From: a virus
Length of the DNA: 28,234 nt
Virus record (IMG/VR): IMGVR_UViG_3300048672_001066
Coordinates: 1-28,234 of that record
Reading direction: 5' to 3' (one strand)
A program made the position numbers and the translations under genes. The notes under the pieces are model-generated. The model saw only the letters and a list, made by a program, of their open reading frames with translations, made no database searches and was not told the origin of the DNA. Shown one piece after another: positions 11,437 to 27,816 of this stretch (its first letter is position 1; each line of letters begins with the position of its first letter).

Positions 11437-11546
11437 CCTCGCTTAAGAGTTCATGCTGTGATGCCCCGATTTGGATTAACGGGGCCCTGATGTATCGAGC
11501 GGAGGAAGAGGAAGAAGATGAAGAAGAGCCTGTGCCCGGGAACTAA
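11385..11546 (+). CDS. Small zinc-binding-type protein with acidic tail (53 aa)
   Basis: ATG 11385 has AAGGAG nine bases upstream, one of the best ribosome sites here. The product contains R-C-E-E-C-G (residues 10-15) and S-C-C-D-A-P (23-28), a four-cysteine set typical of a zinc ribbon. It ends with a run of Glu and Asp (E-E-E-E-E-D-E-E-E). The acidic tail could mimic DNA or contact a basic partner. It overlaps both neighbours (52 and 29 bases). The function is unknown. Confidence 0.55.
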   Translation: MEPKKEIIGRCEECGEMTSLKSSCCDAPIWINGALMYRAEEEEEDEEEPVPGN

Positions 11547-11727
11547 GTATCGGCTGAGGTCCGATTATAACAAGGCTGTTTCTCTTGGTGAGATGCGCGG
11601 AATTATGAATCTGAAGAAGCCAGATATTGTGATTCGTGATTGTCTTCGCTGTGGGATTCGTTTCGAGTCTGAATCACCGAGTAATCGCATCTGTAAACTC
11701 TGTAAGGCATCAAAAAGACAAAACTAA
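11518..11727 (+). CDS. Small zinc-finger protein (69 aa)
   Basis: Starting at ATG 11518 (an ATG at 11593 is an alternative), the product is basic. It carries a four-cysteine zinc knuckle, C-L-R-C-G ... C-K-L-C-K, near the C terminus. This is a common design for small phage DNA- or RNA-binding regulators. The preceding purine-rich stretch GAGGAAGAGGAAGAAG can act as the ribosome site. It is co-directional and overlapping with the acidic zinc protein, so the two may work as a pair; this is only a suggestion. Confidence 0.5.
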   Translation: MKKSLCPGTKYRLRSDYNKAVSLGEMRGIMNLKKPDIVIRDCLRCGIRFESESPSNRICKLCKASKRQN

Positions 11728-11766
11728 TCCTTTACCCCATCTGACAGATGAGTTTACCTTTCTCGC

Positions 11767-11961
11767 ATGGGGAAGCGACACCAACACTACAAGGGTACTA
11801 AGAAAATGGTTCATGTAAGGCTTGATGAGCTGACACTGAATCATGCAACCACATTTGCTAAGGGACAGAAGATTACTTTAAGTGATTATCTTCGCATGCT
11901 GATTACGCTTGGGAACGATCAGGTTCGAAGGGGGGAGCTTTTGTGGAGCGATCAGAAATGA
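11767..11961 (+). CDS. Ribbon-helix-helix-like DNA-binding protein
   Basis: The 64-residue product has a basic N terminus, a beta-strand-like V-H-V-R-L-D (residues 15-20), then two helices (L-N-H-A-T-T-F-A-K-G and L-S-D-Y-L-R-M-L-I-T-L-G). This matches the ribbon-helix-helix fold used by small dimeric repressors. ATG 11767 is used; ATG 11806 would leave the core intact. No clear ribosome site is seen. It probably regulates phage transcription. Its operator is not identified. Confidence 0.5.
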   Translation: MGKRHQHYKGTKKMVHVRLDELTLNHATTFAKGQKITLSDYLRMLITLGNDQVRRGELLWSDQK

Positions 11962-12164
11962 TTCTTTCGGTGGTGATTGCCCTATTGGCCGCCACTAACA
12001 TTCTTACGATCTACTGGGCGCTTCGCTTTCGAGGGCCAATTGATAAAAAGCTTCGGTTGATTAAATCAGCAATTTCGGAGTTCGAAGCCAAGGGCTATGC
12101 CTTAATTGAATTTCGCAGAATTAATCCTGATAACATCTTTTTGAGAAATCCTGAGAGGGAGTAA
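11943..12164 (+). CDS. Small single-pass membrane protein (73 aa)
   Basis: GTG 11943 has GGGGGAG five bases upstream; ATG 11958, overlapping the previous stop as ATGA, is the alternative. A membrane segment spans about residues 7-27 (I-L-S-V-V-I-A-L-L-A-A-T-N-I-L-T-I-Y-W). A basic, helical cytoplasmic-type tail follows. Its stop overlaps the next ATG (TAATG). No family is recognised. Confidence 0.5.
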   Translation: MERSEMILSVVIALLAATNILTIYWALRFRGPIDKKLRLIKSAISEFEAKGYALIEFRRINPDNIFLRNPERE

Positions 12165-12319
12165 TGATTCGTTTAGGGGAGAACATTCGGAGGAAGAGAT
12201 TTCGGCGGATGTTGTACCTCTACATCGAAAGAGTAGTAGTGCTGGGTTTATTAATGGGTTTGGGCTGTGCATCTTACGTTGTTTTAAGGGGCTTAATTAG
12301 TTTGATGGGGACGGAATGA
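12164..12319 (+). CDS. Small membrane protein (51 aa)
   Basis: The ATG shares one base with the preceding stop (TAATG) and the TGA overlaps the next ATG (ATGA). GAGAGGGAG lies just upstream. The N-terminal 20 residues are very basic (R-R-K-R-F-R-R), followed by a membrane segment (V-V-V-L-G-L-L-M-G-L-G-C-A-S-Y-V-V-L). It is coupled directly to the first sugar gene. The function is unknown. Confidence 0.5.
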   Translation: MIRLGENIRRKRFRRMLYLYIERVVVLGLLMGLGCASYVVLRGLISLMGTE

Positions 12320-13197
12320 AATTAGTTATAACGGGTGGTTCTGGAAGTCTTGGCAAAGCCATTCTTCACTCGCAAGAGTTTTTAGAATCCCATGGCATCA
12401 GCCGGATTCGAGTCATTTCTAGGGATGAGCAAAAGCAGGTTGCGATCACCCGCGCCTATACAGGAAAAATTCCAATAGATTGTTATCTCGGAGATGTTTC
12501 AGATCGCGAGCGTATGATGTTTGCGCTGAAGGACGCTCATTTCGTTATTCACGCCGCCGCACAGAAACATATCGATAAGTTTGAGCTGGACGTTCCGACC
12601 GGATATAAGACGAACATCTTCGGAACAGAGAGTGTCGCAAGAGGGTTTCTTGAGTCTAAAAACGCGGTGAGTGGAATGTTTATCTCGACCGATAAGAGTG
12701 CACTCCCGATTACAACTTATGGCGTTTCAAAGCTAGCCGCCCAACATCTTTGGCTTTGGCATAATACGTTTCAAAAGGCGATTCGGTATGGAGTTGCCGT
12801 CTATGGGAACATTTTCGGCTCTCGGGGCTCAGTAATCGAGACATGGACGGAGATGGCGAAGAAGGGTGATTCCATTCCCATCACGGATGTTACATGCACT
12901 CGATTCTTTATGCTCATCCCGGATGCGGCCCACTTTGTTCTGAGGAGTTTATTTCGAAACGAAAGAAAAGTTCATATTCCTGAGATGAAATCATCAGAGA
13001 TGCTCACACTTGCTCAAGTTATTTGGGAGCATCACAACAAATCGAAGTTTAAATATCATGTTACGGGAATGCGAAGCATAGAGAAAGTTCACGAGATATT
13101 GGAGCCCTATGGAAAATCAAGCTTTGAAACAGAACGATTCTCAAAAAAAGAACTCAAAGAAATGTACGCTGTGTGGCTTAGTAAAAGAAATATCTGA
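12316..13197 (+). CDS. Nucleotide-sugar 4,6-dehydratase, PseB/FlaA1-like
   Basis: This short-chain dehydrogenase-type enzyme has the nucleotide-binding loop G7-G-S-G-S-L-G13, the block S-R-D-E-x-K-Q typical of the FlaA1/PseB/CapD group, and H-A-A-A-Q-K-H-I. The catalytic set is T125-D126-K127 with Y135-x-x-x-K139. The Asp-Lys ... Tyr spacing is that of PseB, which converts UDP-GlcNAc to a 4-keto-6-deoxy sugar (dehydration with C5 inversion). At 293 residues it is shorter than typical members (about 330). It starts the sugar operon, overlapping the preceding stop by ATGA. The product would feed an aminotransferase and an acetyltransferase, both encoded downstream. The exact sugar substrate is inferred, not shown. 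Confidence 0.8.
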   Translation: MKLVITGGSGSLGKAILHSQEFLESHGISRIRVISRDEQKQVAITRAYTGKIPIDCYLGDVSDRERMMFALKDAHFVIHAAAQKHIDKFELDVPTGYKTNIFGTESVARGFLESKNAVSGMFISTDKSALPITTYGVSKLAAQHLWLWHNTFQKAIRYGVAVYGNIFGSRGSVIETWTEMAKKGDSIPITDVTCTRFFMLIPDAAHFVLRSLFRNERKVHIPEMKSSEMLTLAQVIWEHHNKSKFKYHVTGMRSIEKVHEILEPYGKSSFETERFSKKELKEMYAVWLSKRNI

Positions 13198-13792
13198 GTT
13201 TTATCTTTGTTTGAAGCGCGGAAAGAAGGTTCGTAAAAGTCGTTGCGCCGCATGTTGTCGAGCCATGCGTAATGAGTACCGCCTTAAAAATATTGAAAAA
13301 CAAAGAGCCTATGAAAGACATAAATATCATACAGTTTTGAAGTATCTTAGAAAAAACGACCCTGAAGTTAAGGCGAAGTGGAGAAAATATTTACAAAATC
13401 ATCGAAAGAAAAATCCTGAAAAAGCAAAGGCTCGTTATACAATTTCGAATGCTAAGCGTTGGAAAATAAAAACATTTACAATTTTGCCTTGCTCCACTTG
13501 TGGGTCTAAAAAATCTGAAGCCCATCATCCTGATTATACAAAGCCGTTAGAAATCGTGTGGCTTTGTCATCCGTGTCATATAAAATTACACAATGAAACA
13601 TCCGGCCAGACTCATGGGGCCAAAACGAGTCTCAACCGAGATGCTGGACTGGTTTCTAAAAAGCCCTCAATTTCGAGAGCTTCTTCTAAAAGATCCAAGT
13701 CCTCTTCCACTTCTCGCAACATGCTCAATTCAAATAGATACGATGGTGGAAAATCCAAAACTGTATCTCACATTCAAAAAGGTGGAGCATGA
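13109..13792 (+). CDS. HNH endonuclease-type protein inserted in the sugar operon
   Basis: The N-terminal part has a zinc finger (C-T-L-C-G, then C-A-A-C-C), followed by a basic helical linker with Y-R-L-K-N-I-E-K repeats. The HNH core is C-S-T-C-G ... A-H-H-P-D-Y-T-K-P-L ... L-C-H-P-C-H-I-K-L-H (about residues 127-161), a well-known phage HNH type. The remaining ~65 residues are Ser/Lys-rich and look like low-quality coding, as another frame (13593-13850) reads better there. The first 89 bases overlap the end of the dehydratase gene. Its lack of relation to sugar metabolism suggests a mobile homing-type gene. The TGA overlaps the NeuB-like ATG. Confidence 0.7.
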   Translation: MENQALKQNDSQKKNSKKCTLCGLVKEISEFYLCLKRGKKVRKSRCAACCRAMRNEYRLKNIEKQRAYERHKYHTVLKYLRKNDPEVKAKWRKYLQNHRKKNPEKAKARYTISNAKRWKIKTFTILPCSTCGSKKSEAHHPDYTKPLEIVWLCHPCHIKLHNETSGQTHGAKTSLNRDAGLVSKKPSISRASSKRSKSSSTSRNMLNSNRYDGGKSKTVSHIQKGGA

Positions 13793-13850
13793 ATACAAGG
13801 ATTATCGCCGAGGTCGGAAGTACCCACCAAGGATCAATCGAACTGATTAA
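13593..13850 (+). CDS. Possible small gene in an alternative frame under the HNH 3' end
   Basis: This 85-residue frame overlaps the HNH C terminus by 200 bases and the start of the NeuB-like gene by 62 bases. Its product looks like a normal soluble protein (M-L-D-W-F-L-K-S-P-Q-F-R-E-L-L-L-K-D-P; L-Y-L-T-F-K-K-V-E-H-E-Y) with well-spaced hydrophobic residues. The HNH frame across the same bases is Ser/Lys-rich and patternless. No good ribosome site precedes the ATG. It could be a real small gene, or the remainder of a gene displaced by the HNH insertion. Confidence 0.35.
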   Translation: MKHPARLMGPKRVSTEMLDWFLKSPQFRELLLKDPSPLPLLATCSIQIDTMVENPKLYLTFKKVEHEYKDYRRGRKYPPRINRTD

Positions 13851-14439
13851 ACGAGCCATAGATCACTGCGTATTGCTTCGAATTGACGCCATTAAGTTTC
13901 AACTATTCTCAAAAAATTCGGAGGCGGCAAAAGCAAATGTCTGGCTTGATCCGGTAATTTATCACGAGGCATCAGAGTACGCAAAAGAGGCGGCCCTTCA
14001 GTGCGGGGCTTCTGTGTTCGATGAGTACTCCCTTGATTTCCTTCTTTCGACAGATCCGTCGTTTGTGAAGTTCGCCTATTCTCAGAAGGGACAGCGCCCG
14101 TGGATTCAAAGAGTTCTCGATTGCGGGATTGAAACGATTGTTTCTTGTGATGTGATGTCGGATAAGAAAGTGCCAATAGGATGCACTCGCTTATTTTGCA
14201 TCCCACAGTATCCTGTTTATTTTCAGATCTGTTTCGATGAACTCTTCCCGAGGTTTGACGGCTACTCTGATCACAGCATGGGATTTGAGCAAACAGTGAA
14301 TGCAGTTTCAGCGGGTGCGAGGGTGATAGAAAAACATATAAGAATAACTAGTTCTTATAATTGTCCTGATGATAACTTCGCTCTTTCACTCGCTGAATTT
14401 TCTACAATGGTCGCTGCCCTTCGGAGCATTCGACAATGA
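13789..14439 (+). CDS. Short NeuB-type nonulosonic acid synthase
   Basis: The product matches the TIM-barrel domain of sialic-acid/pseudaminic-acid/legionaminic-acid synthases. Landmarks are I-A-E8-V-G-S-T-H13-Q-G-S, D-A-I-K36-F-Q, I-P-Q-Y-P-V-Y, G-Y-S-D-H-S-M-G, G-A-R-V-I-E-K-H and D-D-N-F-A-L-S. These enzymes condense phosphoenolpyruvate with a six-carbon sugar to form a nine-carbon acid. It is only 216 residues, against about 340 in the family. Part of the barrel is shortened and the C-terminal antifreeze-like (SAF) domain, which lends an arginine to the neighbouring active site, is absent. It may still be active or may act on a different sugar. ATG 13789 follows GGTGGAG. The stop overlaps the next ATG. 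Confidence 0.75.
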   Translation: MNTRIIAEVGSTHQGSIELIKRAIDHCVLLRIDAIKFQLFSKNSEAAKANVWLDPVIYHEASEYAKEAALQCGASVFDEYSLDFLLSTDPSFVKFAYSQKGQRPWIQRVLDCGIETIVSCDVMSDKKVPIGCTRLFCIPQYPVYFQICFDELFPRFDGYSDHSMGFEQTVNAVSAGARVIEKHIRITSSYNCPDDNFALSLAEFSTMVAALRSIRQ

Positions 14440-15146
14440 TTTTACTTATCGGAGGAAATGGTTCCATAGGGCGCCGTTACCAGTCTGTCATTCGCGCTCT
14501 CGAATATCCGTTTGAAATCTACGATAACCCGAAGCATAAGGCCGGCGATCCTTGGAATAAGAACGTAAGCCACGCACTAATTTGTACCCCAACCGAGACA
14601 CATACATTTTGGGCTAAGGAATGTGCGAGAGCTGAGATTCCATTTCTCTGTGAGAAGCCATTTTCTAAAAGACCGTCAGATGCGCTTCGGTTTAAAGATG
14701 CGAAGGCTTTCGTTGTAAACAATTATAATTTTCTTCCCTGTGCTCAAGTGCCGAGAAAGATTTATTACAACTTCTATAACACGGGTAAAGATGGTCTCGT
14801 ATGGGATGTCTGCCAGCTCGTCTATCTCGCGTGGAAGAATGGCGTTGAACTTGAGGTTACAAGAGATTCTTTTTGGTGGGATATGAAATGGGGCCAGCAT
14901 CAGGTTCCCTATAACGATATTGAACGAAGTTATTACTACATGGTGAAAGCGTTTATGACAGGGGATGCGACGAATCTATGGGATATGCATGACGCAGCCC
15001 ACATGAGTGAGATGTGCAACGAACTGAACGAAAGAGTGGTGAAAGATGTCGAGTACTTTATCTGGAAGCCGAATCCTGGTCGGAATACAAGCCAGGAGCG
15101 GATCTTCTCGCTTGCCGCAAAAGGTCTTTCAAAAGATCGGGGATAA
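14436..15146 (+). CDS. Gfo/Idh/MocA-type oxidoreductase
   Basis: A Rossmann motif at the N terminus (L-I-G6-G-N-G-S-I-G12-R) binds NAD(P). The family blocks I-C-T-P-T-E-T-H (about residues 49-56) and C-E-K-P (about 72-75, with the usual catalytic-site Lys) follow. The C-terminal substrate domain is compact and rich in Trp and Tyr. At 236 residues it is much shorter than the usual ~330. In nonulosonic-acid and lipopolysaccharide gene sets, members oxidise or reduce a ring or side-chain hydroxyl of a sugar. Here it probably modifies an intermediate or the final acid. ATGA overlap links it to the synthase gene. The last 101 bases overlap the cytidylyltransferase gene. Confidence 0.75.
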   Translation: MILLIGGNGSIGRRYQSVIRALEYPFEIYDNPKHKAGDPWNKNVSHALICTPTETHTFWAKECARAEIPFLCEKPFSKRPSDALRFKDAKAFVVNNYNFLPCAQVPRKIYYNFYNTGKDGLVWDVCQLVYLAWKNGVELEVTRDSFWWDMKWGQHQVPYNDIERSYYYMVKAFMTGDATNLWDMHDAAHMSEMCNELNERVVKDVEYFIWKPNPGRNTSQERIFSLAAKGLSKDRG

Positions 15147-15753
15147 AACACTTCTTCAGTGGGTTTATGATGCGGGAGTTGAGGCAGAGCGTATGCTTCG
15201 GGCTAAGAACATCACAGCCGAAGCGATGATCCTTGGGCCTGAGAAGGATATGGAGCTAGAGCGATTTTGTGATGAGAATTTACTCAAGTCCTGGTTCCCC
15301 GCATTTGTCAGAGAAGACGATCTAATCCTTCGCTATCTGAAAACCGCAAGAGAAAGAAACTTCACTCACATTGTTCGAGTCACATCGGATTGCTGGCAGA
15401 TGAATCCTGAAATAATCGTTCGAGTTGTTGAGCTGATGCTAAATGAGAAAGCTGATTACGTATCAAACACCACCACGCGAAGCTTCATTGAAGGGTTAGA
15501 CTGCCAGGCTTGCTCAGTAAAGGCGCTCGCCTGGTTTGATCGTGAGCAGACGAAAAGACGCGAGCATCCTTTTATCGACTTTGACAGAAATGAAAGTGTA
15601 CGAACTGATTTCGAGTACGCAGGATTTAAATATTTGGAGCTTCTGAATTCTTCAGCAGAATGGATGATCAGAACCAGCATCGATGATGAAGCTGATTTGA
15701 AGCGAGCAAGGGAGTTATATGCAAAAGCCAGCGGATCAGGATTGGTTAAATAG
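15046..15753 (+). CDS. SpsF/NeuA-type CMP-sugar cytidylyltransferase
   Basis: The product has the signature of the SpsF group of cytidylyltransferases near the N terminus: I-Q-A-R17-S-G-S-S-R22-L-P-Q-K26-V. This loop binds CTP. Further on come H-I-V-R-V-T-S-D-C-W, with the metal-binding Asp, and E-G-L-D in place of the usual G-x-D/E. The 235-residue length is normal. The role would be activation of a nonulosonic acid with CMP, the step needed before transfer. ATG 15046 makes a 101-base overlap with the oxidoreductase gene. This is unusually long for the operon but required, because the CTP loop begins only ten residues in. Confidence 0.8.
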   Translation: MSSTLSGSRILVGIQARSGSSRLPQKVFQKIGDKTLLQWVYDAGVEAERMLRAKNITAEAMILGPEKDMELERFCDENLLKSWFPAFVREDDLILRYLKTARERNFTHIVRVTSDCWQMNPEIIVRVVELMLNEKADYVSNTTTRSFIEGLDCQACSVKALAWFDREQTKRREHPFIDFDRNESVRTDFEYAGFKYLELLNSSAEWMIRTSIDDEADLKRARELYAKASGSGLVK

Positions 15754-16912
15754 ATCACGTGACGTATGGGCACAAAGTTTCCCGGCCACGAACAGCAAAC
15801 GCAGCACACACTACATTCAGAACATTTACCCCACAGTGGTTACGGGTGGGGTTGGCTGTTATATGTTGGGCGCTCATGATGCCCGCTATCTTGACTTTGT
15901 CTGTGGTCTTGGCGCTGTTAGCCTTTCTTACTCGAATCAAAAAGTCATCGAAGCCGTAACCAGACAAGCGCAAAAGGGATCAAGCTTTAGTCTTCCGCAT
16001 ACGCTTGAGATTGAAACGGCTGAGCATATCCGCGGCCTTGTTCCCGGTGCTGAGAGAATTCGATTCCTTAAGAATGGAGATGACGCCTCAAGAGCTGCTG
16101 TTCGAATTGCACGGGCCTACACAAACCGAACCAGAGTCTTAAGTGACGGCTATCATGGCCACTCTGACTTATTCACCTCGCTTACAGAACCGGCGTTGGG
16201 CGTGAAAGATAAGCATGAAATTTATCCCTTAGAGGAAGATAACATTGATTCAGCCGTGGCTTGTGTAATCGTCGAAGCTCTAAAGCTCAGTGACAAGCCT
16301 CAATACATGCAATGGTTAAAGAAGATCAGGGAGAAGTGTAGAGAAGTCGGGGCCGTGTTTGTAATGGATGAGATCGTAACAAACTGCCGAGTATCAAACC
16401 TTACCGTTTCTAAGTGGTGGGATATTGACCCCGATCTGATTCTGCTTGGAAAAGGCATAGCCAATGGCTGGCCGATTGCTGTTATCGGGGGAAAGAAAGA
16501 TTTAATGAATTGTGGGGAGTACTTCATTTCAACAACATTCGGCGGATGTGCTGTTGATCTCGCCGCTTGTAACGCCACATTAACCGAGATTGAAAAGCGA
16601 TCCTTGGTTGATTTGGTATTCTACGGAAAGCGTTTAGTAGATAGGTTGAACGCCCTACACCCTGAAATCAAATGGGAGGGGTGGGGTACTCGTGCTCAAT
16701 TGAATGTTGAAAATCCAACAACACAGCTCTTTCTGCAAGAAGCGGTTCGAGCCGGTATTTTCTTTGGGAAGGCGTTCTTTTTCAACTTCGCGATGTTAGA
16801 GGCTAATTTAGAAGAATTTGTTCTCAACACATGCCGAGCGATTGTAGAGCGGATTAAACGAGGGGAAGTTCGTATGGAAGGACTGCCCCCGCACATGAGC
16901 TTTAAGCGATGA
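15719..16912 (+). CDS. Class III PLP-dependent aminotransferase (GSA-aminomutase-like)
   Basis: The 397-residue enzyme resembles glutamate-1-semialdehyde aminomutase. Features are F-L-K-N-G-D-D-A-S-R-A-A-V-R-I-A-R-A (phosphate-binding helix), G-Y-H-G-H-S-D, F-V-M-D-E-I-V-T (the Asp that holds the PLP ring nitrogen) and L-G-K245-G-I-A-N-G-W-P with the PLP-binding lysine. Members in surface-glycan clusters add an amino group to a keto sugar instead of serving haem synthesis. The context, with a dehydratase making a 4-keto sugar and an acetyltransferase next door, supports that. Classic pseudaminic and legionaminic pathways use a DegT-type aminotransferase, so this is a non-standard choice. ATG 15719 follows GGGAG. 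Confidence 0.85.
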   Translation: MQKPADQDWLNRSRDVWAQSFPATNSKRSTHYIQNIYPTVVTGGVGCYMLGAHDARYLDFVCGLGAVSLSYSNQKVIEAVTRQAQKGSSFSLPHTLEIETAEHIRGLVPGAERIRFLKNGDDASRAAVRIARAYTNRTRVLSDGYHGHSDLFTSLTEPALGVKDKHEIYPLEEDNIDSAVACVIVEALKLSDKPQYMQWLKKIREKCREVGAVFVMDEIVTNCRVSNLTVSKWWDIDPDLILLGKGIANGWPIAVIGGKKDLMNCGEYFISTTFGGCAVDLAACNATLTEIEKRSLVDLVFYGKRLVDRLNALHPEIKWEGWGTRAQLNVENPTTQLFLQEAVRAGIFFGKAFFFNFAMLEANLEEFVLNTCRAIVERIKRGEVRMEGLPPHMSFKR

Positions 16913-17412
16913 TCACTTTAACCCGAGAGCTTTCTTCGAAACAACGAGCCTGGCGAAACGATGTCAGGATTAGTGCCTGGTCTCGGCAAAACGGGCTCAT
17001 ATCCCTTGAAGAAATGTATAAATGGCACGAGAGAACGTCTCGGGATCCTACGAAGAAAATCTTTGGCCTATTGAATGAGCATAATGAAAATGTGGGAACT
17101 GTAGGCTTAAGCAATATTTCGTTGATGCATGGAACGGCGGAATTTTCGATCTTGATTGGACCGGAGTATCAGTTAAAGGGGTATGGCAAAGAAGGATTGA
17201 TTGAGCTTTTGAAGTACGGCTTTAATCATTTACGACTGAATACGATTTATGGGGAAACCTTTTACGGCAATCCCGCGCTCAAGCTTTTTTTAAGTTTAGG
17301 ATTCACGGATGAGGGGAAGTTGAGATCGAGGTATTTTAAATTCGGTCAATATGTTGACGTTCACGCGATCAGCATGTTGTCTAGTGATGCACAGCGTCAG
17401 GAATGGTGGTAA
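16909..17412 (+). CDS. GNAT-family acetyltransferase, PseH/RimJ-like
   Basis: The 167-residue protein shows the GNAT layout. An N-terminal helix with W-R-N-D is followed by beta strands (V-G-T-V-G-L-S-N-I and A-E-F-S-I-L-I-G), the acetyl-CoA loop Q-L-K-G-Y-G-K-E, and the conserved N-P-A-L-K-L-F-L-S-L-G-F helix-turn. It closest resembles the RimJ/PseH branch, in which PseH N-acetylates the 4-amino group of an amino sugar. Following the aminotransferase with an ATGA overlap, it likely acetylates that enzyme's product. It ends the sugar operon. A role in protein acetylation is possible but less likely here. Confidence 0.75.
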   Translation: MITLTRELSSKQRAWRNDVRISAWSRQNGLISLEEMYKWHERTSRDPTKKIFGLLNEHNENVGTVGLSNISLMHGTAEFSILIGPEYQLKGYGKEGLIELLKYGFNHLRLNTIYGETFYGNPALKLFLSLGFTDEGKLRSRYFKFGQYVDVHAISMLSSDAQRQEWW

Positions 17413-18863: not shown

Positions 18864-19244
18864 ATGGCAGGTAAGGGTAAACGAGGCCGTCCAGCCTGGG
18901 TCCCAACGCCGGAAATACTAGCCCAAGTCGAGGGCATGGCTGGGCGCTTTCTCAAAGAAGAACAAATAGCAACACTCCTAGGCATGGCTCCCACTACTTT
19001 CTGTGAAAAGAAGAAAGAATTTGCGGAATTATCGGAAGCCATTCGACGAGGCCGCGCGAAAGTCGCCGTCAATATATCAAATAAAATCTATGAACATGCA
19101 ATGAAGGGTAACGTCACGCTCCTCATGTTCCTTGGCAAATCTGTTGTAGGTCTTAAAGAAAATGATCCTCAAACTAATGAAACGGTAACGTTCAATGTCT
19201 TCACCAGCAAAGGTTCAGAGCGGATTCAATTTTCAAACGAATGA
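18864..19244 (+). CDS. terS: Terminase small subunit-like protein
   Basis: The 126-residue protein has a basic start (K-G-K-R-G-R-P) and a helix-turn-helix (L-K-E-E-Q-I-A-T-L-L-G-M-A-P-T-T-F). A helical region follows with A-V-N-I-S-N-K-I-Y-E-H-A-M-K-G-N-V-T, a pattern common in small terminase subunits before their oligomerisation part. It lies immediately upstream of the large subunit with a 50-base overlap. Its role would be recognising the packaging start site on phage DNA. Confidence comes mainly from position plus the helix-turn-helix. Confidence 0.75.
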   Translation: MAGKGKRGRPAWVPTPEILAQVEGMAGRFLKEEQIATLLGMAPTTFCEKKKEFAELSEAIRRGRAKVAVNISNKIYEHAMKGNVTLLMFLGKSVVGLKENDPQTNETVTFNVFTSKGSERIQFSNE

Positions 19245-20556
19245 TTTCGCCCTCCACAAATTCCAACAAGAAGCCTGGGATGCTCTCGAAGATGAAAAGA
19301 TAAGAGAAGTCGCACTCCTTGCCGGCATACAATCTGGAAAGACAAGTTTCGGTGCGCTCGCCACAACAAAGAAAATAGGCGTCCTGAGAAATAAACATAA
19401 AGACTGTAATTTCATCGTAGCCGCGGACACCTATAAAACACTCAGCCAATCGACAGTGCCAACACTGCTTAAGTTCACGAACCAGGGCCTTGGTATCTAT
19501 AATCAGCAAAGACAAGAGATTGAATTAAAAGGCGGTGGGAAGATCTATCTCCGCACATCTACCGATCCGTGGTCTGTTGAGGGTATACCGAACTGCGCCT
19601 TCGCTTGGGTTGATGAATCTGGAAAATGCAGCAAGCTCTTTCAAACGAACATCCTAGGCCGCGTGGCAAGACTCTCAGGTCAAGCCCTTTACACCTCGAC
19701 ACCCTACGCCATGAACTGGCTTTATCATGATGTTGAAAAACCGTTCCTCTCAGGCGAGAGAAAAGATATTCACCTCGTTCGATTTTCATCAGCCGATAAT
19801 CCGTCATTCCCTCGCGAGGAGTTTGAACGGCAAAGACAGATCTTAGACTCCCGAATGTTTCGCATGAAATATATGGGAGTTCATGAACGAATGCAGGGTC
19901 TCGTTTATGAGACACCAGACGATGTATTCGTCGAAGCCGATCAGCTTCCTAAAAACACACGCTACTTTGCTGGCGTTGACTGGGGTTTTGCCCAAGGCCA
20001 TGAGTTCGCCATCGTCGTGAGAGCCATTACCATTGACGGCTATCGTTATGAAGTTGACGAGTACAAATCAGCCGGTCTCGATCCTCAACAGCAAGTAGAT
20101 GCCTGTAAAGCGAAGGCGGGAATCTGGGGCATAGAGCGCTTCTTCTGTGATCCTGCGCGGCCAGACATGATTGCATCAATGAACAAGGCGGGACTTAAAA
20201 GCACAGGATTTCATGTCGGAAATGAATCCTATAAGCCGCTCATTCCAGGGATCAATAAGCATTATGAGTTAATAAAGTCTGGAAAATATAAAATTTGGCG
20301 ATCAAAATGTCCTCATCTTACTGATGAACTTGAAACATATCATTGGCCAGAATATCACGACGACAAGGAGCCTAAAGAGGTGCCAGTAGCTATAAATGAC
20401 CATTGTTTAGATGCGGCTCGCTACCTCACCATTGGTACAATGAATATTTGTATTAAAGATCCGCCGAAGGCCATTATCTCGCAGCGATTCCCAGAGCGTG
20501 ACTTCTGGAATCCCGCAAAGAAATCTAAACAAAAGAAAAGTTGGGATGCTTACTAA
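19195..20556 (+). CDS. terL: Terminase large subunit
   Basis: The 453-residue motor has an N-terminal ATPase with Walker A G44-I-Q-S-G-K-T50 and Walker B ending A-F-A-W-V-D140-E141. A coupling motif Y-T-S-T-P follows near residue 168. The C-terminal RNase H-like nuclease shows its acidic residues in G-V-D262-W-G, F-F-C-D-P and H-C-L-D-A. It uses ATP to pump DNA into the empty head and cuts the concatemer. The length is normal for the family. The start at 19195 overlaps the small subunit by 50 bases; the first ~20 residues are poorly conserved, so a slightly later start is possible. The stop overlaps the next gene as TAATG. Confidence 0.93.
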   Translation: MSSPAKVQSGFNFQTNDFALHKFQQEAWDALEDEKIREVALLAGIQSGKTSFGALATTKKIGVLRNKHKDCNFIVAADTYKTLSQSTVPTLLKFTNQGLGIYNQQRQEIELKGGGKIYLRTSTDPWSVEGIPNCAFAWVDESGKCSKLFQTNILGRVARLSGQALYTSTPYAMNWLYHDVEKPFLSGERKDIHLVRFSSADNPSFPREEFERQRQILDSRMFRMKYMGVHERMQGLVYETPDDVFVEADQLPKNTRYFAGVDWGFAQGHEFAIVVRAITIDGYRYEVDEYKSAGLDPQQQVDACKAKAGIWGIERFFCDPARPDMIASMNKAGLKSTGFHVGNESYKPLIPGINKHYELIKSGKYKIWRSKCPHLTDELETYHWPEYHDDKEPKEVPVAINDHCLDAARYLTIGTMNICIKDPPKAIISQRFPERDFWNPAKKSKQKKSWDAY

Positions 20557-20894: not shown

Positions 20895-22742
20895 ATGTCT
20901 ATCGTTTCAGAATTTGAACAAGTGCCACTGAGCACCAGACAAGAAATTCCAGCCGATCAACCCGAAACAGACCGAGACCTCGTTAAGAAAATTAATGATC
21001 TTCTCAATAGATCCAAACGTCATCGTAAACGATACGATGCCGACTGGAACTATAACTATGAGTTCGTCTGCTCGGGACGACAATGGTCAATCGATCGACC
21101 ACGCTGGAGATTCGGTGAAGTTGTAAACGTCCTCTGGTCAACCATCATGACGGAAATCGCGCTTCAAACCGATGGCAAACCTAAAGCTGAGTTCTCCTCG
21201 GCAGAGCCAAATGATGCCGCGTTTACTGACATCCTCAGTGAAGTGCATCAATCGAACTGGGAGAAATATAAATGGTCCTCTGTAATCTCTGGACTACTCT
21301 TTCACTCGAAGCTTTATCACGCGGCCCATGCTGAAGTGGTGTGGGATCCTGATATGAACTCAGGTCTCGGTGACGTCTGCTTCCGTGAGCTAGATCCATT
21401 CTATTGCTATGTGGATCCACGCGCCTCTGACGTGAATAAGGGCCGTAAAGCCAGATGGTTTATCTATGCTGAGCCCCGTCCCACATCGGAACTAAAGCTT
21501 AAGTATCCTGATAAGAAAGATAAGATTAAGGCGGATATTTCCCTCTTGAATCAACATCAGGATTCGACTCAAACAGGGCGTATTTATACCAATTTCGATC
21601 CCTACAGTCCTAGCCGACTACCATCGTCTGCGACTGCAACGGGTGAGGTGTACGGAGGGGAGCCTCACACGGTTTTAATTCGCGCTTGGCTTCGAGATGA
21701 TACCTTAGAGGAAATCTGCGAAGAAAAAGATAATGAAGCTGGCGAGAAATCAAAGGAATATATTCTTCGAAAGAAGTATCCCACAGGCCGGTACATTGAA
21801 ATCTGTAACAACGAACTTCTGTTTGATGGACCTCCAGGGGTTGAGATTCAAGGCAACTGGGTTCCTTACGAAGACGACGCCTTCCCTGTTGCCAGGCTTG
21901 TAAACTACAACATGCCGTTAGAGTATTATGGGGAAAATGAGTGTACACACACCAAGGGCCCCCAGAAACTCGTTAACTATATCTGGTCTTACATCATGGA
22001 TATGTTCCGCACACAGGCTAATCCGATTACGGTCATTGGCACTGGCGCGAACGTTGATGAGGAAGAAGTTACAAACGAACCAGGCTCTATTGTTCACGCT
22101 GACGATGTAAATCAGTTTAAACGCGAGCAGGGCGTTCCCGTAACTCCGGGCTCCTTTGATCTTTTAGGCCAAGCGCTTGCTAATTTCGACAAGGTCCAAG
22201 GGATGCAAGACGTGCAGCGCGGAGCCGATGTCTCGAATGCGACCTCTGGCCTTATGTTAGAGGGCTACTTAGAAGCGGCTCAAACCAGGCCCAGATTAAA
22301 GAATCGTAATCTTGATGATTTCCTTCAAGACGTTGGAGAGCTGATCCTTAAGCGGATGCTTCAGTTTTACACACAACCCAGGGTTTATCGGATTGTAAAT
22401 AAGCTCGGTTTTCCCGAATTTGTGGAGTTTTATGTCCCGGAATTACAAGATGCTAATGGAAAGACGTCACGTGTAGCCCGTATTAAACGAGTGTCTACGC
22501 TTCCGAACGGTCAGACTCTAACCGATCAGACTGAGGTTGATGTGAAAGGATTGCCAGATGTCAGAATCACCTCGGGTTCAGCCCTTCCCTACGCGAAGGC
22601 GCAGAAAGCTCAAACGGCTCTTACGTACTTTAACGCGGGGGCTATCGACACTGAAGAACTCCTTAAATCGGTTGATTGGCCTAACTTCGAAGAAGTGATT
22701 AAGCGCATGGCGCAAAATCCTCCACAACAACCACAGAGGTAA
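20895..22742 (+). CDS. Portal protein
   Basis: The 615-residue protein lies directly after the terminase and before the scaffold and capsid genes. It has the portal-type opening (helical, charged; Y-N-Y-E-F-V-C-S-G-R-Q-W, then I-M-T-E-I-A-L). A central region contains L-D-P-F-Y-C-Y-V-D-P, frequent in large portals, and the C-terminal half is helical. Portals form the twelve-subunit ring through which DNA enters and leaves the head. The length fits the larger portals of P22-like or related phages. The ribosome site GGGGAAA precedes ATG 20895. No sequence motif is absolute for this family, so the call rests on order and overall character. Confidence 0.8.
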   Translation: MSIVSEFEQVPLSTRQEIPADQPETDRDLVKKINDLLNRSKRHRKRYDADWNYNYEFVCSGRQWSIDRPRWRFGEVVNVLWSTIMTEIALQTDGKPKAEFSSAEPNDAAFTDILSEVHQSNWEKYKWSSVISGLLFHSKLYHAAHAEVVWDPDMNSGLGDVCFRELDPFYCYVDPRASDVNKGRKARWFIYAEPRPTSELKLKYPDKKDKIKADISLLNQHQDSTQTGRIYTNFDPYSPSRLPSSATATGEVYGGEPHTVLIRAWLRDDTLEEICEEKDNEAGEKSKEYILRKKYPTGRYIEICNNELLFDGPPGVEIQGNWVPYEDDAFPVARLVNYNMPLEYYGENECTHTKGPQKLVNYIWSYIMDMFRTQANPITVIGTGANVDEEEVTNEPGSIVHADDVNQFKREQGVPVTPGSFDLLGQALANFDKVQGMQDVQRGADVSNATSGLMLEGYLEAAQTRPRLKNRNLDDFLQDVGELILKRMLQFYTQPRVYRIVNKLGFPEFVEFYVPELQDANGKTSRVARIKRVSTLPNGQTLTDQTEVDVKGLPDVRITSGSALPYAKAQKAQTALTYFNAGAIDTEELLKSVDWPNFEEVIKRMAQNPPQQPQR

Positions 22743-23691: not shown

Positions 23692-24654
23692 ATGCCTTCA
23701 GATGAACAATATCTCGCGGAAGCGGGATTAGATGCAGAAACAGGAGAAGCTAAAAAAGCTGACGCCACTGCCTCTGAACAACCACAACCCGAAGCAGTTC
23801 CGACTGCCAAAGACGTGGAAATGTTCGAGGTTCAGGGGGCAAAGTATCCGGTCGATACGAAGTTTAAACTCACACATGGTGGGAAGGTGCTTGATGTACC
23901 TTACTCGACTCTTGCCAACACGTATCGGCAATGGCAGCACATGCAAGACAAGTGGACCAGTGAGTACAAGCCTAAGATTGATGAATTTCAAAAGCTGCGC
24001 CCTGAGTTTGATAAGTACAAGGGCTTCTATGATAAGTACGGTCAACTTCAGACCTGGAGTGAGCAGAACCCACAAGACTGGGATGTGCTCTGGAATCTTT
24101 ACCAGAATAAAGATAAGCATCTGTTAGATGCAAAGACCGCTGGTGGGCAGCCGGCACCAGGTAATCCAAATCTTCAGCCGATTACTGAGAACCTCTCAAA
24201 GCTACAAAAAGAGTTAGAGGACCTACGGGGGTTCAAGACTCAGTTTGAACAAAAGCAACAAGAAGAGGCTCAGCGTAAAGACACAGAAGCGGTGATGGCT
24301 GAAGTCAAACAGTTTAAAGAATCGTATCCTGAACTTAATCTTGATGAGCGTGATCCTGATGGTGTGAGCCTTTGGGGAAAAGTCATTCAATATGGGATTG
24401 AGAACAAGTTACCAACATTTAAAGCCGCCGCTAATTTATACCTTGAAGAAAGACTGCGTGATATTTGGTCAACACGATCAAGAACCGAAACAGTCAAAAG
24501 CTTTCAAGCGGATAATAAAGCTGGCGTAATTAAGCGAAGCGCTACTCCGATTCGGGGTGAAGGTGCAAAGCCTAATGTAAAACAACTCTCGTATGCGGAA
24601 CTGGCTGATATGGCTAAAAATGGAGCCTTCCAAGACGCTGCGGGGCAACAATAA
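23692..24654 (+). CDS. Scaffold-like head assembly protein
   Basis: The 320-residue protein lies immediately before the major capsid gene and has the character of scaffolds. The N terminus is acidic and disordered (A-E-A-G-L-D-A-E-T-G-E-A). A long charged, Lys/Glu/Gln-rich coiled-coil centre follows (L-S-K-L-Q-K-E-L-E-D-L-R; F-E-Q-K-Q-Q-E-E-A-Q-R). The C-terminal part is basic and may contact the capsid protein (K-A-G-V-I-K-R-S-A-T-P-I-R). Scaffolds guide shell assembly and leave before packaging. No protease domain is visible. ATG 23692 follows AGGAGA. Confidence 0.75.
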   Translation: MPSDEQYLAEAGLDAETGEAKKADATASEQPQPEAVPTAKDVEMFEVQGAKYPVDTKFKLTHGGKVLDVPYSTLANTYRQWQHMQDKWTSEYKPKIDEFQKLRPEFDKYKGFYDKYGQLQTWSEQNPQDWDVLWNLYQNKDKHLLDAKTAGGQPAPGNPNLQPITENLSKLQKELEDLRGFKTQFEQKQQEEAQRKDTEAVMAEVKQFKESYPELNLDERDPDGVSLWGKVIQYGIENKLPTFKAAANLYLEERLRDIWSTRSRTETVKSFQADNKAGVIKRSATPIRGEGAKPNVKQLSYAELADMAKNGAFQDAAGQQ

Positions 24655-24682: not shown

Positions 24683-25615
24683 ATGGCAGTTTCAGTGAGT
24701 GCGATTAACGCCATCACAAAACAAGCATTTATTCCTAAGTTGCAAGACAACGTGATTAAGTCGAACGCTCTTCTCACTTCGCTTGAGAAGAACGGCGGCC
24801 TTGAGAATCTGGACGGCGGGCAAGACGTGAGAGTCCCAGTTCGCTATGCCAGGTTTGCAGCTCGGGGATGGTATCAAGGTTCTGAGAGTCAAATCAGCGC
24901 CTATAATGAGAAAAAGACGGCCCTCGTTTTCGATTGGGCTCAATTTTACACCAACATCACTATTAGCGGTCTCGATAAGTTGAAGAACGCCGGTGAGAAC
25001 AAGGTCATTGACCATGTTCGCTCTGAAGTCGAAACGGCTGAAGAAGATATTCGGGATTCATTTGGTACAGGGCTTTATAGCAACGGTTCTACTGATCCTA
25101 AATCGATCATCGGACTTGGCGCTATCTTGAGCACCTCTAATACCTACGGTGGAATTTCGCAATCCAGCGAATCATGGCTGCAATCGAACATCGATAGCTC
25201 CACAACCACTATGACTCTTGGAAAACTTCAAACTATGTTTGAATCGGCTGTTCACGGTGCGGATAAACCGAATCTGGCAGTCACCACCAAGACACTTTTC
25301 AACGCTTACTGGGCTTTGCTGCAACCGCAACAAAGATTCAGTGACGGGGAAATGGCCTCGGCTGGATTCAAGAATTTATTGTTCAATGGCGCGACAGTTT
25401 TGATGGATGAGTATTGCACTGCATCTCTGTTTGCGTTTTTGAATACCAAGTTCTTAAAACTATACAGCCATAAAGATCGTAAATTTCCTGGCCAATATGT
25501 GGACTTCAGGAAGTTCTTTGATCAAGACGCTGAAATTGCTTCTATGCAATGGGCTGGGGCATTTGTTTGCTCGGCACCTCGTATGCAAGCGGCTTTAACG
25601 GCTTTAACGGCTTAA
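24683..25615 (+). CDS. Major capsid protein
   Basis: The 310-residue protein has landmarks I recall from one group of phage major capsid proteins: an N-terminal helix with I-P-K-L-Q-D-N-V and L-L-T-S-L-E-K-N, V-R-V-P-V-R-Y, F-D-W-A-Q-F-Y-T-N-I-T-I-S-G-L-D, K-N-A-G-E-N-K-V-I-D and I-I-G-L-G-A-I-L. A Ser/Thr-rich stretch (about residues 140-180, with S-T-S-N-T-Y and S-S-T-T-T-M) could be exposed on the capsid. The position after scaffold and portal supports the call. The C terminus ends in A-L-T-A-L-T-A, encoded by a tandem nine-base repeat at 25591-25608. It would form the icosahedral shell, presumably with the HK97 fold. Confidence 0.85.
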   Translation: MAVSVSAINAITKQAFIPKLQDNVIKSNALLTSLEKNGGLENLDGGQDVRVPVRYARFAARGWYQGSESQISAYNEKKTALVFDWAQFYTNITISGLDKLKNAGENKVIDHVRSEVETAEEDIRDSFGTGLYSNGSTDPKSIIGLGAILSTSNTYGGISQSSESWLQSNIDSSTTTMTLGKLQTMFESAVHGADKPNLAVTTKTLFNAYWALLQPQQRFSDGEMASAGFKNLLFNGATVLMDEYCTASLFAFLNTKFLKLYSHKDRKFPGQYVDFRKFFDQDAEIASMQWAGAFVCSAPRMQAALTALTA

Positions 25616-25633: not shown

Positions 25634-25957
25634 ATGCCAGTACAATCAGAATCTAGATTTTTTGCTGATGCCGGTCTCGGATCGGTCTCGGCTACTGTGG
25701 CAAGTCTTCCTGTTGGATGCATTCTTGGAGAAGAACGCATTAATGCAGGAATTCGCTATAAGCTTTGCTATAACGCGGGAACTGCCGCGATTGGCCAAGG
25801 TAAAGTAGCGGCACCAGTGCTTGCGAATTGCACTCCCGGATCCGTGGCTGTATCGACGACTTCTCGTTCGATGCATCACATGGGCGCGGTTGTTGCTTCA
25901 AGGGTGTCGTCGGACCTATGGTGGGCGATGCTGCATCACTTCCTACTGGAAGCTTGA
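25634..25957 (+). CDS. Head decoration-like protein, N-terminal part of an interrupted frame
   Basis: ATG 25634 follows AAAGGGGATT. The first ~88 residues are beta-type and small-residue-rich (G-I-R-Y-K-L-C-Y-N-A-G, A-I-G-Q-G-K-V-A-A-P-V), like small decoration proteins encoded after capsid genes. After A-V-V-A (about residue 88) the frame gives a nonsense-like end (S-S-D-L-W-W-A-M-L-H-H) and stops at 25957. The -1 frame continues in the expected style to 26097. The full product would be about 154 residues. The break lies around 25895-25899. Confidence 0.6.
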   Translation: MPVQSESRFFADAGLGSVSATVASLPVGCILGEERINAGIRYKLCYNAGTAAIGQGKVAAPVLANCTPGSVAVSTTSRSMHHMGAVVASRVSSDLWWAMLHHFLLEA

Positions 25958-26097
25958 TCTGCGTAGGCGATTCGGGCGCCATTACTTTGATGCCCACTGG
26001 AAGCACCGCAACCGGATGGATTCCTTCCGGATACGTGATTACCACTGTATCAAATGGTGGAACCGCTACCGGTAACTGCTTCGTAGACTTCGCTTAA
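25897..26097 (+). pseudogene. C-terminal part of the decoration-like protein, shifted frame
   Basis: In the -1 frame relative to 25634, the sequence reads F-K-G-V-V-G-P-M-V-G-D-A-A, then G-S-L-I-C-V-G-D-S-G-A-I-T, and ends C-F-V-D-F-A, beta-rich and Gly/Thr-rich like the N-terminal part. It has no start of its own near the join. The combined span 25634-26097 is one base short of whole codons, and one extra T in the CTT at 25896-25898 would restore it. Programmed -1 frameshifting is possible, but no classic slippery heptamer is seen. Confidence 0.5.
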
Positions 26098-26100
26098 TGT

Positions 26101-27183
26101 ATGATAAAGACGATTGATATAGATTTAACGTATCGACCAACAATTGACGGGCCGCCTGCTCGAGAAGGGGACCTTTTTCAAAAGGCTGCTTCGAATGACC
26201 AGGCGACCGTTCATCGTTGGCGAGATGTGTGGGTTGATTTAACAAAGAAGGCCAAAGAACGTTTTGGATCTTTTTCAGAGAAATCAATCGGCAAGCTCTA
26301 CGGTATAAATCGAATGAAGCCTGTGATCATTTGCGGCTCAGGCCCTAGTCTAAAGACGTCAATCGAATCTTTAAAGAATAACGCAAAGTCAGAACACCCC
26401 GTCATGGTGGTCTCTTGCTTGCACAACTTCGGATATTTTGAGGATGAGGGATTTCATGCTGATTATTATCTGACGTTAGATAGCGGTGAGATCACTGTGG
26501 CGGATGTTTTTGAAGGCAGAAAGCAACCACCAGAACATTACTGGGAAGCGACAAAGGGTAAAAAGCTTTTAGCAACTGTTGCCACGCATCCGACTCTGTT
26601 TGATCTCTGGCAAGGGGAAATCATTCTCTTTAACGTGATGATTCCAGACCTTGAGATTCAAACAAAGATTCAGGAGGTAGAGCGGTTTACGCATTATCTA
26701 TCGCCAGGTGGAAACGCCTTAGGAGGGGTATTTTATGCGGCTAAAGCGATCTTTTGTTCTGATCCTGTAATATTCGTAGGGGCTGACTTCTGCTTTGATA
26801 CGAATAATCAATTTCATTCTTATGCGACCCATTATGACGCTCCTGGGAGCTATGTCATGTGGCCGTCAATCTATTCAGAATTGAATCGAAAGACATGGCC
26901 ATCGTATTTGAACTTCAAGTTCTTCTTCGATCATTGTGCCTGTAAGGTGCCTGGGAACTATATAAATTGTTCTGAGGGGCTTTTAGGGGCCTATCCCGAG
27001 GGGAATATAAGGCAGTTCAAATATATGACGCTTCGAGACGCATTGCTTCCTTATGTTTCTATGGATGTAATGAGTCTTAAGTCGATTGATATGCAAACTG
27101 GGAATATCATTTCAAGTGAGGAATTAAGGTTGAAAGATTTGTTCAGTAATTCACAATATCCAAAAGACTTGGTTTTATTTTAG
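26101..27183 (+). CDS. Maf/DUF115-type glycosyltransferase, candidate nonulosonic acid transferase
   Basis: The central part matches the MptE/Maf (DUF115) family: V-I-I-C-G79-S-G-P-S-L84, V-V-S-C-L, the A-D121-Y-Y-L-T-L-D127 element, P-G-G-N-A and the late V-I-F-V-G227-A-D229-F. In bacteria with glycosylated flagella, Maf proteins transfer pseudaminic or legionaminic acid from the CMP-sugar to Ser/Thr of flagellin, and their core resembles sialyltransferases. The 360-residue length fits the core without the extra domains of flagellar Maf proteins. It sits among head genes, four bases after the decoration-like gene and before other virion genes, with no flagellar gene near. I infer that it glycosylates a virion protein. 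A 6-hydroxymethylpterin kinase (MptE) role is less likely. Confidence 0.7.
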   Translation: MIKTIDIDLTYRPTIDGPPAREGDLFQKAASNDQATVHRWRDVWVDLTKKAKERFGSFSEKSIGKLYGINRMKPVIICGSGPSLKTSIESLKNNAKSEHPVMVVSCLHNFGYFEDEGFHADYYLTLDSGEITVADVFEGRKQPPEHYWEATKGKKLLATVATHPTLFDLWQGEIILFNVMIPDLEIQTKIQEVERFTHYLSPGGNALGGVFYAAKAIFCSDPVIFVGADFCFDTNNQFHSYATHYDAPGSYVMWPSIYSELNRKTWPSYLNFKFFFDHCACKVPGNYINCSEGLLGAYPEGNIRQFKYMTLRDALLPYVSMDVMSLKSIDMQTGNIISSEELRLKDLFSNSQYPKDLVLF

Positions 27184-27192
27184 GAGGAAAAA

Positions 27193-27462
27193 ATGGCTTT
27201 TACAGTTTCGAATGTAGTGCGCGATACCTGGGGCGCTAATAAAATTAATATTTTACGAGTGACCGCAGACGCGACGACTCAAACAATTGATACGGGATTT
27301 AATGTGGTGAAGCATGCTTCTCTCATGAATGAAGGTGCAAGCACCAGTCCTGTTATGGTAATGAATGCTGGCGCTGAAGGCACCTCGATCAATGGAAGCA
27401 TTGCTTTGAGTGGTTGCACGGCTGCGGCGATTTATCATCTTTGGGTTGTGTCTCCTGCTTAA
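27193..27462 (+). CDS. Small virion-type protein (89 aa)
   Basis: A very strong ribosome site (AGGAGG) precedes ATG 27193, which suggests high expression. The pattern F-T-V-S-N-V-V-R-D-T-W-G, V-T-A-D-A-T-T-Q-T-I-D-T-G-F, I-N-G-S-I-A matches small beta-sheet proteins I recall near phage capsid genes. It is rich in Ser and Thr. It is probably a virion component such as a decoration or connector-associated protein. The exact role is unknown. Confidence 0.65.
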   Translation: MAFTVSNVVRDTWGANKINILRVTADATTQTIDTGFNVVKHASLMNEGASTSPVMVMNAGAEGTSINGSIALSGCTAAAIYHLWVVSPA

Positions 27463-27480: not shown

Positions 27481-27816
27481 ATGACAACTTATAAGATTTT
27501 CGAACCAGCTTGTGCGGCAGGAGCAACGGGAGCGACAAATTCGCTTATGTACGTTGGCCCACACACGAAGGCGATTTTAGTAGTCTCGAACGTGACTGGA
27601 TTTAACTCGGGCGCAGGGAATGCGACGATTCAAGTTCGTCAAGCCATTGATGAGAATGGTGGGACCTCGGTCATGACCTCGATAGCAACTGAAACGGTTG
27701 CTGGAGTTTATGAGCTGACGAACATCGGCTTGCAGTATATGAAGATAGGGTTTGGCACCGCGCCAACTGCAAGTGCTACTGGAAGAATTAACATAGTTGT
27801 GTACGACGATTTATAA
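27481..27816 (+). CDS. Small virion-type protein (111 aa)
   Basis: ATG 27481 follows AAAGGGG. The product is beta-type, with many Thr, Ala and Gly residues (C-A-A-G-A-T-G-A-T-N-S; A-T-I-Q-V-R-Q-A-I-D), and ends in I-N-I-V-V-Y-D-D-L. Its style is close to the preceding gene, so both are likely capsid-associated. No enzymatic motif or membrane segment is seen. Confidence 0.6.
   Translation: MTTYKIFEPACAAGATGATNSLMYVGPHTKAILVVSNVTGFNSGAGNATIQVRQAIDENGGTSVMTSIATETVAGVYELTNIGLQYMKIGFGTAPTASATGRINIVVYDDL

Follow-up and report, generated by a model that had tools for sequence, protein, structure and literature searches.

Flagellar Maf enzymes modify flagellin in the cytoplasm, ahead of its export (PMC4065374), and take CMP-Neu5Ac and CMP-KDO as donors (PMC11339370); in the latter study, C. 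botulinum Maf was expressed in EV136, an E. coli K-12 strain that accumulates CMP-Neu5Ac. Because they act before export and accept these donors, a cytoplasmic protein acceptor is plausible for a Maf-like enzyme, which would suit a phage that assembles in the cytoplasm. Among phages, virion glycosylation has been described for mycobacteriophages: according to PMC12363180 (citing Freeman et al. 2023) and PMC12619734, phage enzymes glycosylate capsid and tail tube, and the former attributes the modification of capsid and tail proteins of Che8, Corndog and Myrna to phage-encoded transferases, a likeness to the system proposed here. The mycobacteriophage glycosyltransferases are not reported as PF01973 or Maf-like in the available part of PMC12363180. 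In the present case, modification is predicted from the genes, which include the phage's own nonulosonate-type sugar genes. Mycobacteriophage capsid glycosylation and nonulosonate glycosylation of flagella by Maf are documented, but the open-access literature yielded no account that joins the two, with a Maf-like enzyme encoded among phage head genes together with nonulosonate genes of its own.

The DNA analysed here (the window) is a linear IMG/VR fragment of 28,234 bp. Its transferase shares with flagellar Maf proteins (M. magneticum 5MU5, A. caviae Maf1 and C. botulinum Maf) the PF01973 core, the best fold and profile match, and the presence of nonulosonate genes in the genome. Flagellar Maf proteins are built of three parts and comprise about 650 residues (~630–670 in 5MU5, with 632 resolved), whereas the phage protein has 360 aa and one domain, without the extra N- and C-terminal domains. 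They are encoded in flagellar loci, whereas the phage gene lies in a head module; as the preliminary description had noted, no flagellar gene is near, and the record contains no flagellin (PF00669) match. To the sialyltransferases of families GT29 and GT42 (ST8SiaIII, 5BO9; CstII) the likeness is one of fold, with a match to a CMP-sialic-acid-bound structure at E=3e-5, but no family-level sequence match. MptE and archaeal HPPK (M. jannaschii, 8SD5) belong to the same Pfam family and appear related in fold, with a fold match weaker than that to Maf; the genes seen to recur with the phage transferase are sugar genes. Finally, the legionaminic acid pathway of the B. subtilis Sps system (PMC7439481) has in common with the phage a dehydratase, an aminotransferase, an acetyltransferase, a NeuB-type synthase and an SpsF-type cytidylyltransferase; unlike it, the phage has no SpsG-like hydrolase family and possesses an extra Gfo/Idh oxidoreductase and a class-III aminotransferase. 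We consider the phage protein to be, somewhat more probably than not, a self-supplied nonulosonate protein transferase working on virion proteins.

The transferase and the head module

The transferase gene (26101–27183, plus strand) is intact from ATG to stop, encodes 360 aa and starts 3 bases past the stop codon of the preceding gene. Its sole Pfam match is PF01973 (E=3e-14, 53.6 bits at a cut-off of 34.6, residues 61–233), the MptE-like family, formerly DUF115/Maf; searches of PHROG and NCBIfam gave no match. All 20 aligned relatives match PF01973 as well, and across the 20 sequences the GPSL loop, D127, GG203-204, G208, GADF 227-230, F238-H239 and Y245-D246 are invariant. An AlphaFold2 model built on the alignment with these 20 relatives (pLDDT 90.2, pTM 0.88) is that of a soluble globular protein. 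When compared with the PDB by Foldseek, it ranks the M. magneticum (Magnetospirillum magneticum) Maf structure 5MU5 first (E=2.9e-12), human ST8SiaIII with CMP-3FNeu5Ac second (E=3.1e-5) and the archaeal HPPK 8SD5 third (E=4.8e-5), and a PDB sequence search with a profile of the 20 sequences again places 5MU5 on top (E=6.9e-5). With a TM-score by query of 0.48 and an rmsd of 6.2 Å to 5MU5, the moderate TM-scores of the model indicate a common core of transferase and Maf without tight superposition of the whole. Altogether, the predicted fold supports a Maf/sialyltransferase-like enzyme.

That a Maf-like gene stands among head genes, as initially described, holds: the PF01973 frame follows the capsid and cement genes and precedes small Ser/Thr-rich genes. 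Upstream lie the large terminase (19195–20556, plus strand; TIGR01547, E=4e-15), which in most relatives is directly preceded by NeuB, the portal (20895–22742), a scaffold-like gene (23692–24654) and the gene of the 310-aa major capsid protein (24683–25615, plus strand; NF033394, E=1.1e-68; PHROG 9953, E=3.7e-55). Between capsid and transferase, a cement/decoration-like gene (25634–26097, plus strand) is split into two ORFs, 25634–25957 and 25828–26097, by an apparent frameshift near 25900. Relatives carry a single intact ORF of ~165 aa at this place, and tblastn with the intact 166-aa protein of the near relative L002 matches frames 1 and then 3; the frameshift may be real or may stem from faulty sequencing or assembly. 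A model of the L002 protein (pLDDT 80) matches cement and head-fibre base proteins of Pam3, HFTV1, phi29 (gp8.5), T1 and TW1, the best at E=6.5e-4. Downstream of the transferase, on the plus strand, follow a small protein of 89 aa (27193–27462), whose family is the immediate 3' neighbour of the transferase at 85/91 loci, and, in the same block, a small Ser/Thr-rich protein of 111 aa (27481–27816) that is kept in the nearest relatives, L002, L006 and L007.

This gene order is nearly constant. IMG/VR scans with the transferase gave 164 relatives, the best 80 of which were taken, and gene position was surveyed at 96 loci including the window, some of the records being overlapping or near-duplicate. 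At every one of the 81 IMG/VR loci with more than 2 kb of upstream sequence, the transferase is preceded, within 2.5 kb, by a capsid gene of the same orientation, and the cement gene adjoins the transferase in 88/89. In L013, L014 and L015, the cement gene is present in two tandem copies between the capsid and transferase genes. In L003 (7814–8930), ~175 bases out of frame interrupt the capsid gene, which may reflect an insertion or an intron.

The sugar genes and their co-occurrence with the transferase

The preliminary description had also placed a nonulosonate pathway at 12316–17412 of the same genome, and six genes on the plus strand bear this out. They encode a PseB/SpsM-like UDP-sugar dehydratase (12316–13197; PF02719, E=4e-56; TIGR03589, E=2e-52, under the equivalog cut-off), a NeuB-like synthase of 216 aa (13789–14439; PF03102, E=1e-22), a Gfo/Idh/MocA-type oxidoreductase that belongs to the recurring cassette (14436–15146; PF01408, E=1e-6), an SpsF/NeuA-type cytidylyltransferase of the CTP_transf_3 family (15046–15753; PF02348, E=2e-11), which presumably makes the CMP-sugar donor, a class-III aminotransferase of the glutamate-1-semialdehyde type (15719–16912; PF00202, E=2.5e-36) and a PseH-like GNAT acetyltransferase (16909–17412; TIGR03585, E=1e-19, under the cut-off; PF13302, E=3e-12). 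The dehydratase, aminotransferase and acetyltransferase families are thus all present in the window, at scores that do not reach the NCBIfam equivalog cut-offs. The window's NeuB is without a C-terminal region found in many relatives and has every residue that is invariant among 17 phage NeuB sequences. No match to PF02350 or PF04101, i.e. to a sugar-nucleotide hydrolase of the NeuC/LegG or PseG type, was found in the window, itself a fragment, or in eight long relatives. Hence, the pathway may depend on the host for one step, or its product may be an unusual sugar; with the hydrolase missing and the Gfo/Idh enzyme conserved, this sugar could be one not described before.

The usual arrangement in relatives is a solitary NeuB gene just 5' of the terminase gene terL, with a median gap of ~180 bases, while PseB, Gfo, SpsF, aminotransferase and GNAT form a five-gene cassette elsewhere, in the same order. 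All six sugar genes lie upstream of terL in the window and in G022; in G006 the five genes other than NeuB are found upstream of terS-terL, the sugar block is re-ordered in G014, and the pseB-neuB pair is inverted in L018 and L022. The set of sugar genes persists among records although linkage, order and orientation vary. An HNH-like ORF is inserted in the sugar block of the window (13109–13792; called by eye, no Pfam match) and an HNH-endonuclease-like ORF, also called by eye, in the cassette of L098 (8198–8671) at a different point; both look as if they were inserted homing endonucleases.

A genome survey had been named beforehand as a possible refutation, and transferase and nonulosonate genes turned out to co-occur in both search directions. 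Of the transferase-bearing IMG/VR records, 18 are 33 kb or longer; 16 of these contain PF03102 (NeuB), 17 contain PF02348, and 16 contain both. NeuB, detected with a local model, lies upstream of terL in 34 of 38 loci with at least 1.5 kb of sequence there; of the remaining four, L023/G022 carries its NeuB at another place in the record. The reverse scan, starting from phage NeuB, gave 80 loci, 76 of them with terL within 10 kb; a few are other viruses that have NeuB without PF01973. All 39 NeuB loci whose sequence continues beyond the capsid gene for more than 1.5 kb carry the transferase, a count that describes the NeuB of the transferase clade and not all viral NeuB, as the queries were drawn from that clade. 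Outside the clade, neither PF01973 nor NeuB occurs in nine annotated phage records with related capsids (BUCT555, Mx8, Mx9, Bradyrhizobium, Ruegeria and others), nor NeuB in 35 IMG/VR records with BUCT555/Mx8-type capsids, i.e. NeuB in 0/44 capsid relatives in total. A Fisher test on the record counts yields p=5e-11 but ignores shared ancestry and is therefore not taken as proof. Every positive record comes from a single phage clade, so that the counts are not independent and common descent could account for some of the association.

Three records depart from this pattern. G024 (35.8 kb) has the transferase, with NeuB and cytidylyltransferase absent, G062 (a 22.7-kb fragment) has none of the sugar genes, and G006 is without NeuB. 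A donor supplied by the host would explain all three; the same exceptions show that the link between transferase and pathway is not absolute. In G024, a shortened aminotransferase remnant (locus L108, 4141–5091) is the one sugar gene of the record. It reads IGAANACG opposite the window's LGKGIANG in an alignment by eye, with the lysine lost, and judged by its sequence G024 appears to hold a decaying sugar cassette. The proposal of a two-part system that makes the sugar and then attaches it to the virion gains from the near-constant co-occurrence and the Maf/sialyltransferase-like fold, but the completeness of the pathway was not borne out, the hydrolase family not having been found.

Candidate acceptors and alternative readings

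We propose that the phage's own enzymes would make a CMP-nonulosonate inside the infected cell, and that the Maf/sialyltransferase-like enzyme, predicted to be soluble and cytoplasmic and expressed alongside the late head genes, would move this CMP-activated, sialic-acid-like sugar onto Ser/Thr of new virion proteins in a presumed O-linkage. The most likely acceptor would be the capsid or its cement protein, with transfer before or during assembly. More tentatively, the whole uncultured clade may make a nonulosonic acid, perhaps of an undescribed kind, and put it on the capsid or cement protein of its own particles, whose heads would then be sialic-acid-like. If true, the heads of a widespread environmental phage group would bear sialic-acid-like sugars with a negative charge. 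Such sugars could influence how stable the particles are, how they adhere and bind to hosts, or how other organisms recognise them, with some benefit to the phage presumed. The Maf-like transferase, small and possibly soluble, would have an acceptor of a new type, and the function of a family annotated as 'MptE-like, hypothetical' would become directly testable.

The preliminary description had pointed to a Ser/Thr-rich stretch of the capsid protein and to the adjacent small proteins. More specific than Ser/Thr richness is the cluster SSTTTMT at capsid residues 172–178 (25196–25216, plus strand), which is conserved in the clade: among 82 clade sequences, no column falls below 82% Ser/Thr and most reach 94% or more, and 60/82 clade capsid proteins contain [DNE]S(S)TT[TS], versus 0/86 outside the clade. 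We regard residues 172–178 as a candidate glycosylation site only, one confounded by ancestry. Ser/Thr richness by itself carries little weight, since the Ser/Thr fraction of the small genes after the transferase (0.19–0.20) does not exceed that of the window's tail fibre (0.22) and is close to that of tail-tube proteins (0.18). Outside the clade, proteins encoded after the capsid gene range from 0.12 to 0.25, and Ser/Thr content was rejected as stand-alone evidence for an acceptor. Co-divergence was likewise uninformative as a guide: the transferase tracks portal and tail tube most closely (rho 0.81), more so than capsid (0.69) or cement (0.61). Portal and tail genes thus follow it no less closely than the capsid and cement genes do, and the capsid is not singled out.

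The same numbers bear on the alternative that survives best, namely that the enzyme is indeed the protein transferase of the clade and its acceptor a tail, tail-fibre or internal virion protein instead of a head protein. Tail fibre and tail tube match the head proteins in Ser/Thr richness, the strongest co-divergence is that with portal and tail tube, and mycobacteriophages, according to the sources cited above (PMC12363180, PMC12619734), carry glycans on the tail tube besides the capsid. Yet the gene adjoins capsid and cement genes, and the Ser/Thr cluster of the capsid protein is kept within the clade and missing from relatives outside, so that we regard a tail or internal acceptor as unlikely.

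Somewhat further from what we expect is a nonulosonate transferase that modifies the host surface (lipopolysaccharide, capsule or flagella), blocking superinfection or hiding receptors, with its site in the head operon serving late expression only. Phage and prophage enzymes that alter nonulosonic acids of the host capsule are known (PMC12053666, PMC6586298), and a tyrosine-recombinase-like ORF in L039 (178–1017) suggests that some clade members may be temperate. However, the transferase directly follows the capsid and cement genes at every testable locus, the model is of a soluble globular protein, and Maf-type enzymes use soluble cytoplasmic protein (PMC4065374). Moreover, almost none of the clade is seen in cellular genomes: the sole match in 84,980 of them is one short fragment of a relative in an actinomycete bin, which is unfavourable to stable lysogeny. 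We therefore consider modification of the host surface rather improbable. Least of all do we expect transferase and sugar genes to be core genes of one lineage, co-inherited without joint function (e.g. an MptE-like kinase or structural protein, the sugar going elsewhere): although all records form a single clade, transferase and NeuB track core-gene divergence, G024 has the transferase without the pathway and PF01973 is named for MptE, the pathway genes vary in order, orientation and linkage and yet stay, as is less consistent with a passive passenger, and the fold search ranks Maf and sialyltransferase above HPPK.

Returning to the virion-directed transferase, no relative of it was found among 50,697 records of isolated phages with two different queries, nor a NeuB match with one query; the search mode itself works, as a pseB query matched six records. 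No cultured model is therefore at hand. One of 80 BUCT555/Mx8-type loci, L215, encodes a fusion of PF01973 with a methyltransferase immediately 3' of its capsid and cement genes, without NeuB or cytidylyltransferase; it is a second case of PF01973 at the post-capsid position, in a different phage group. The fusion shares this position (11545–13553) with another ORF, which contains a DLDT motif, and the two are perhaps another capsid-modifying set. Within the clade, an N-terminal piece of one transferase frame (CQLTKEVFKTRDELEAH) resembles the C2H2-like end that a relative's small virion-block protein bears (L018, 8501–8740; L004, 8779–9231), possibly as a shared docking piece.
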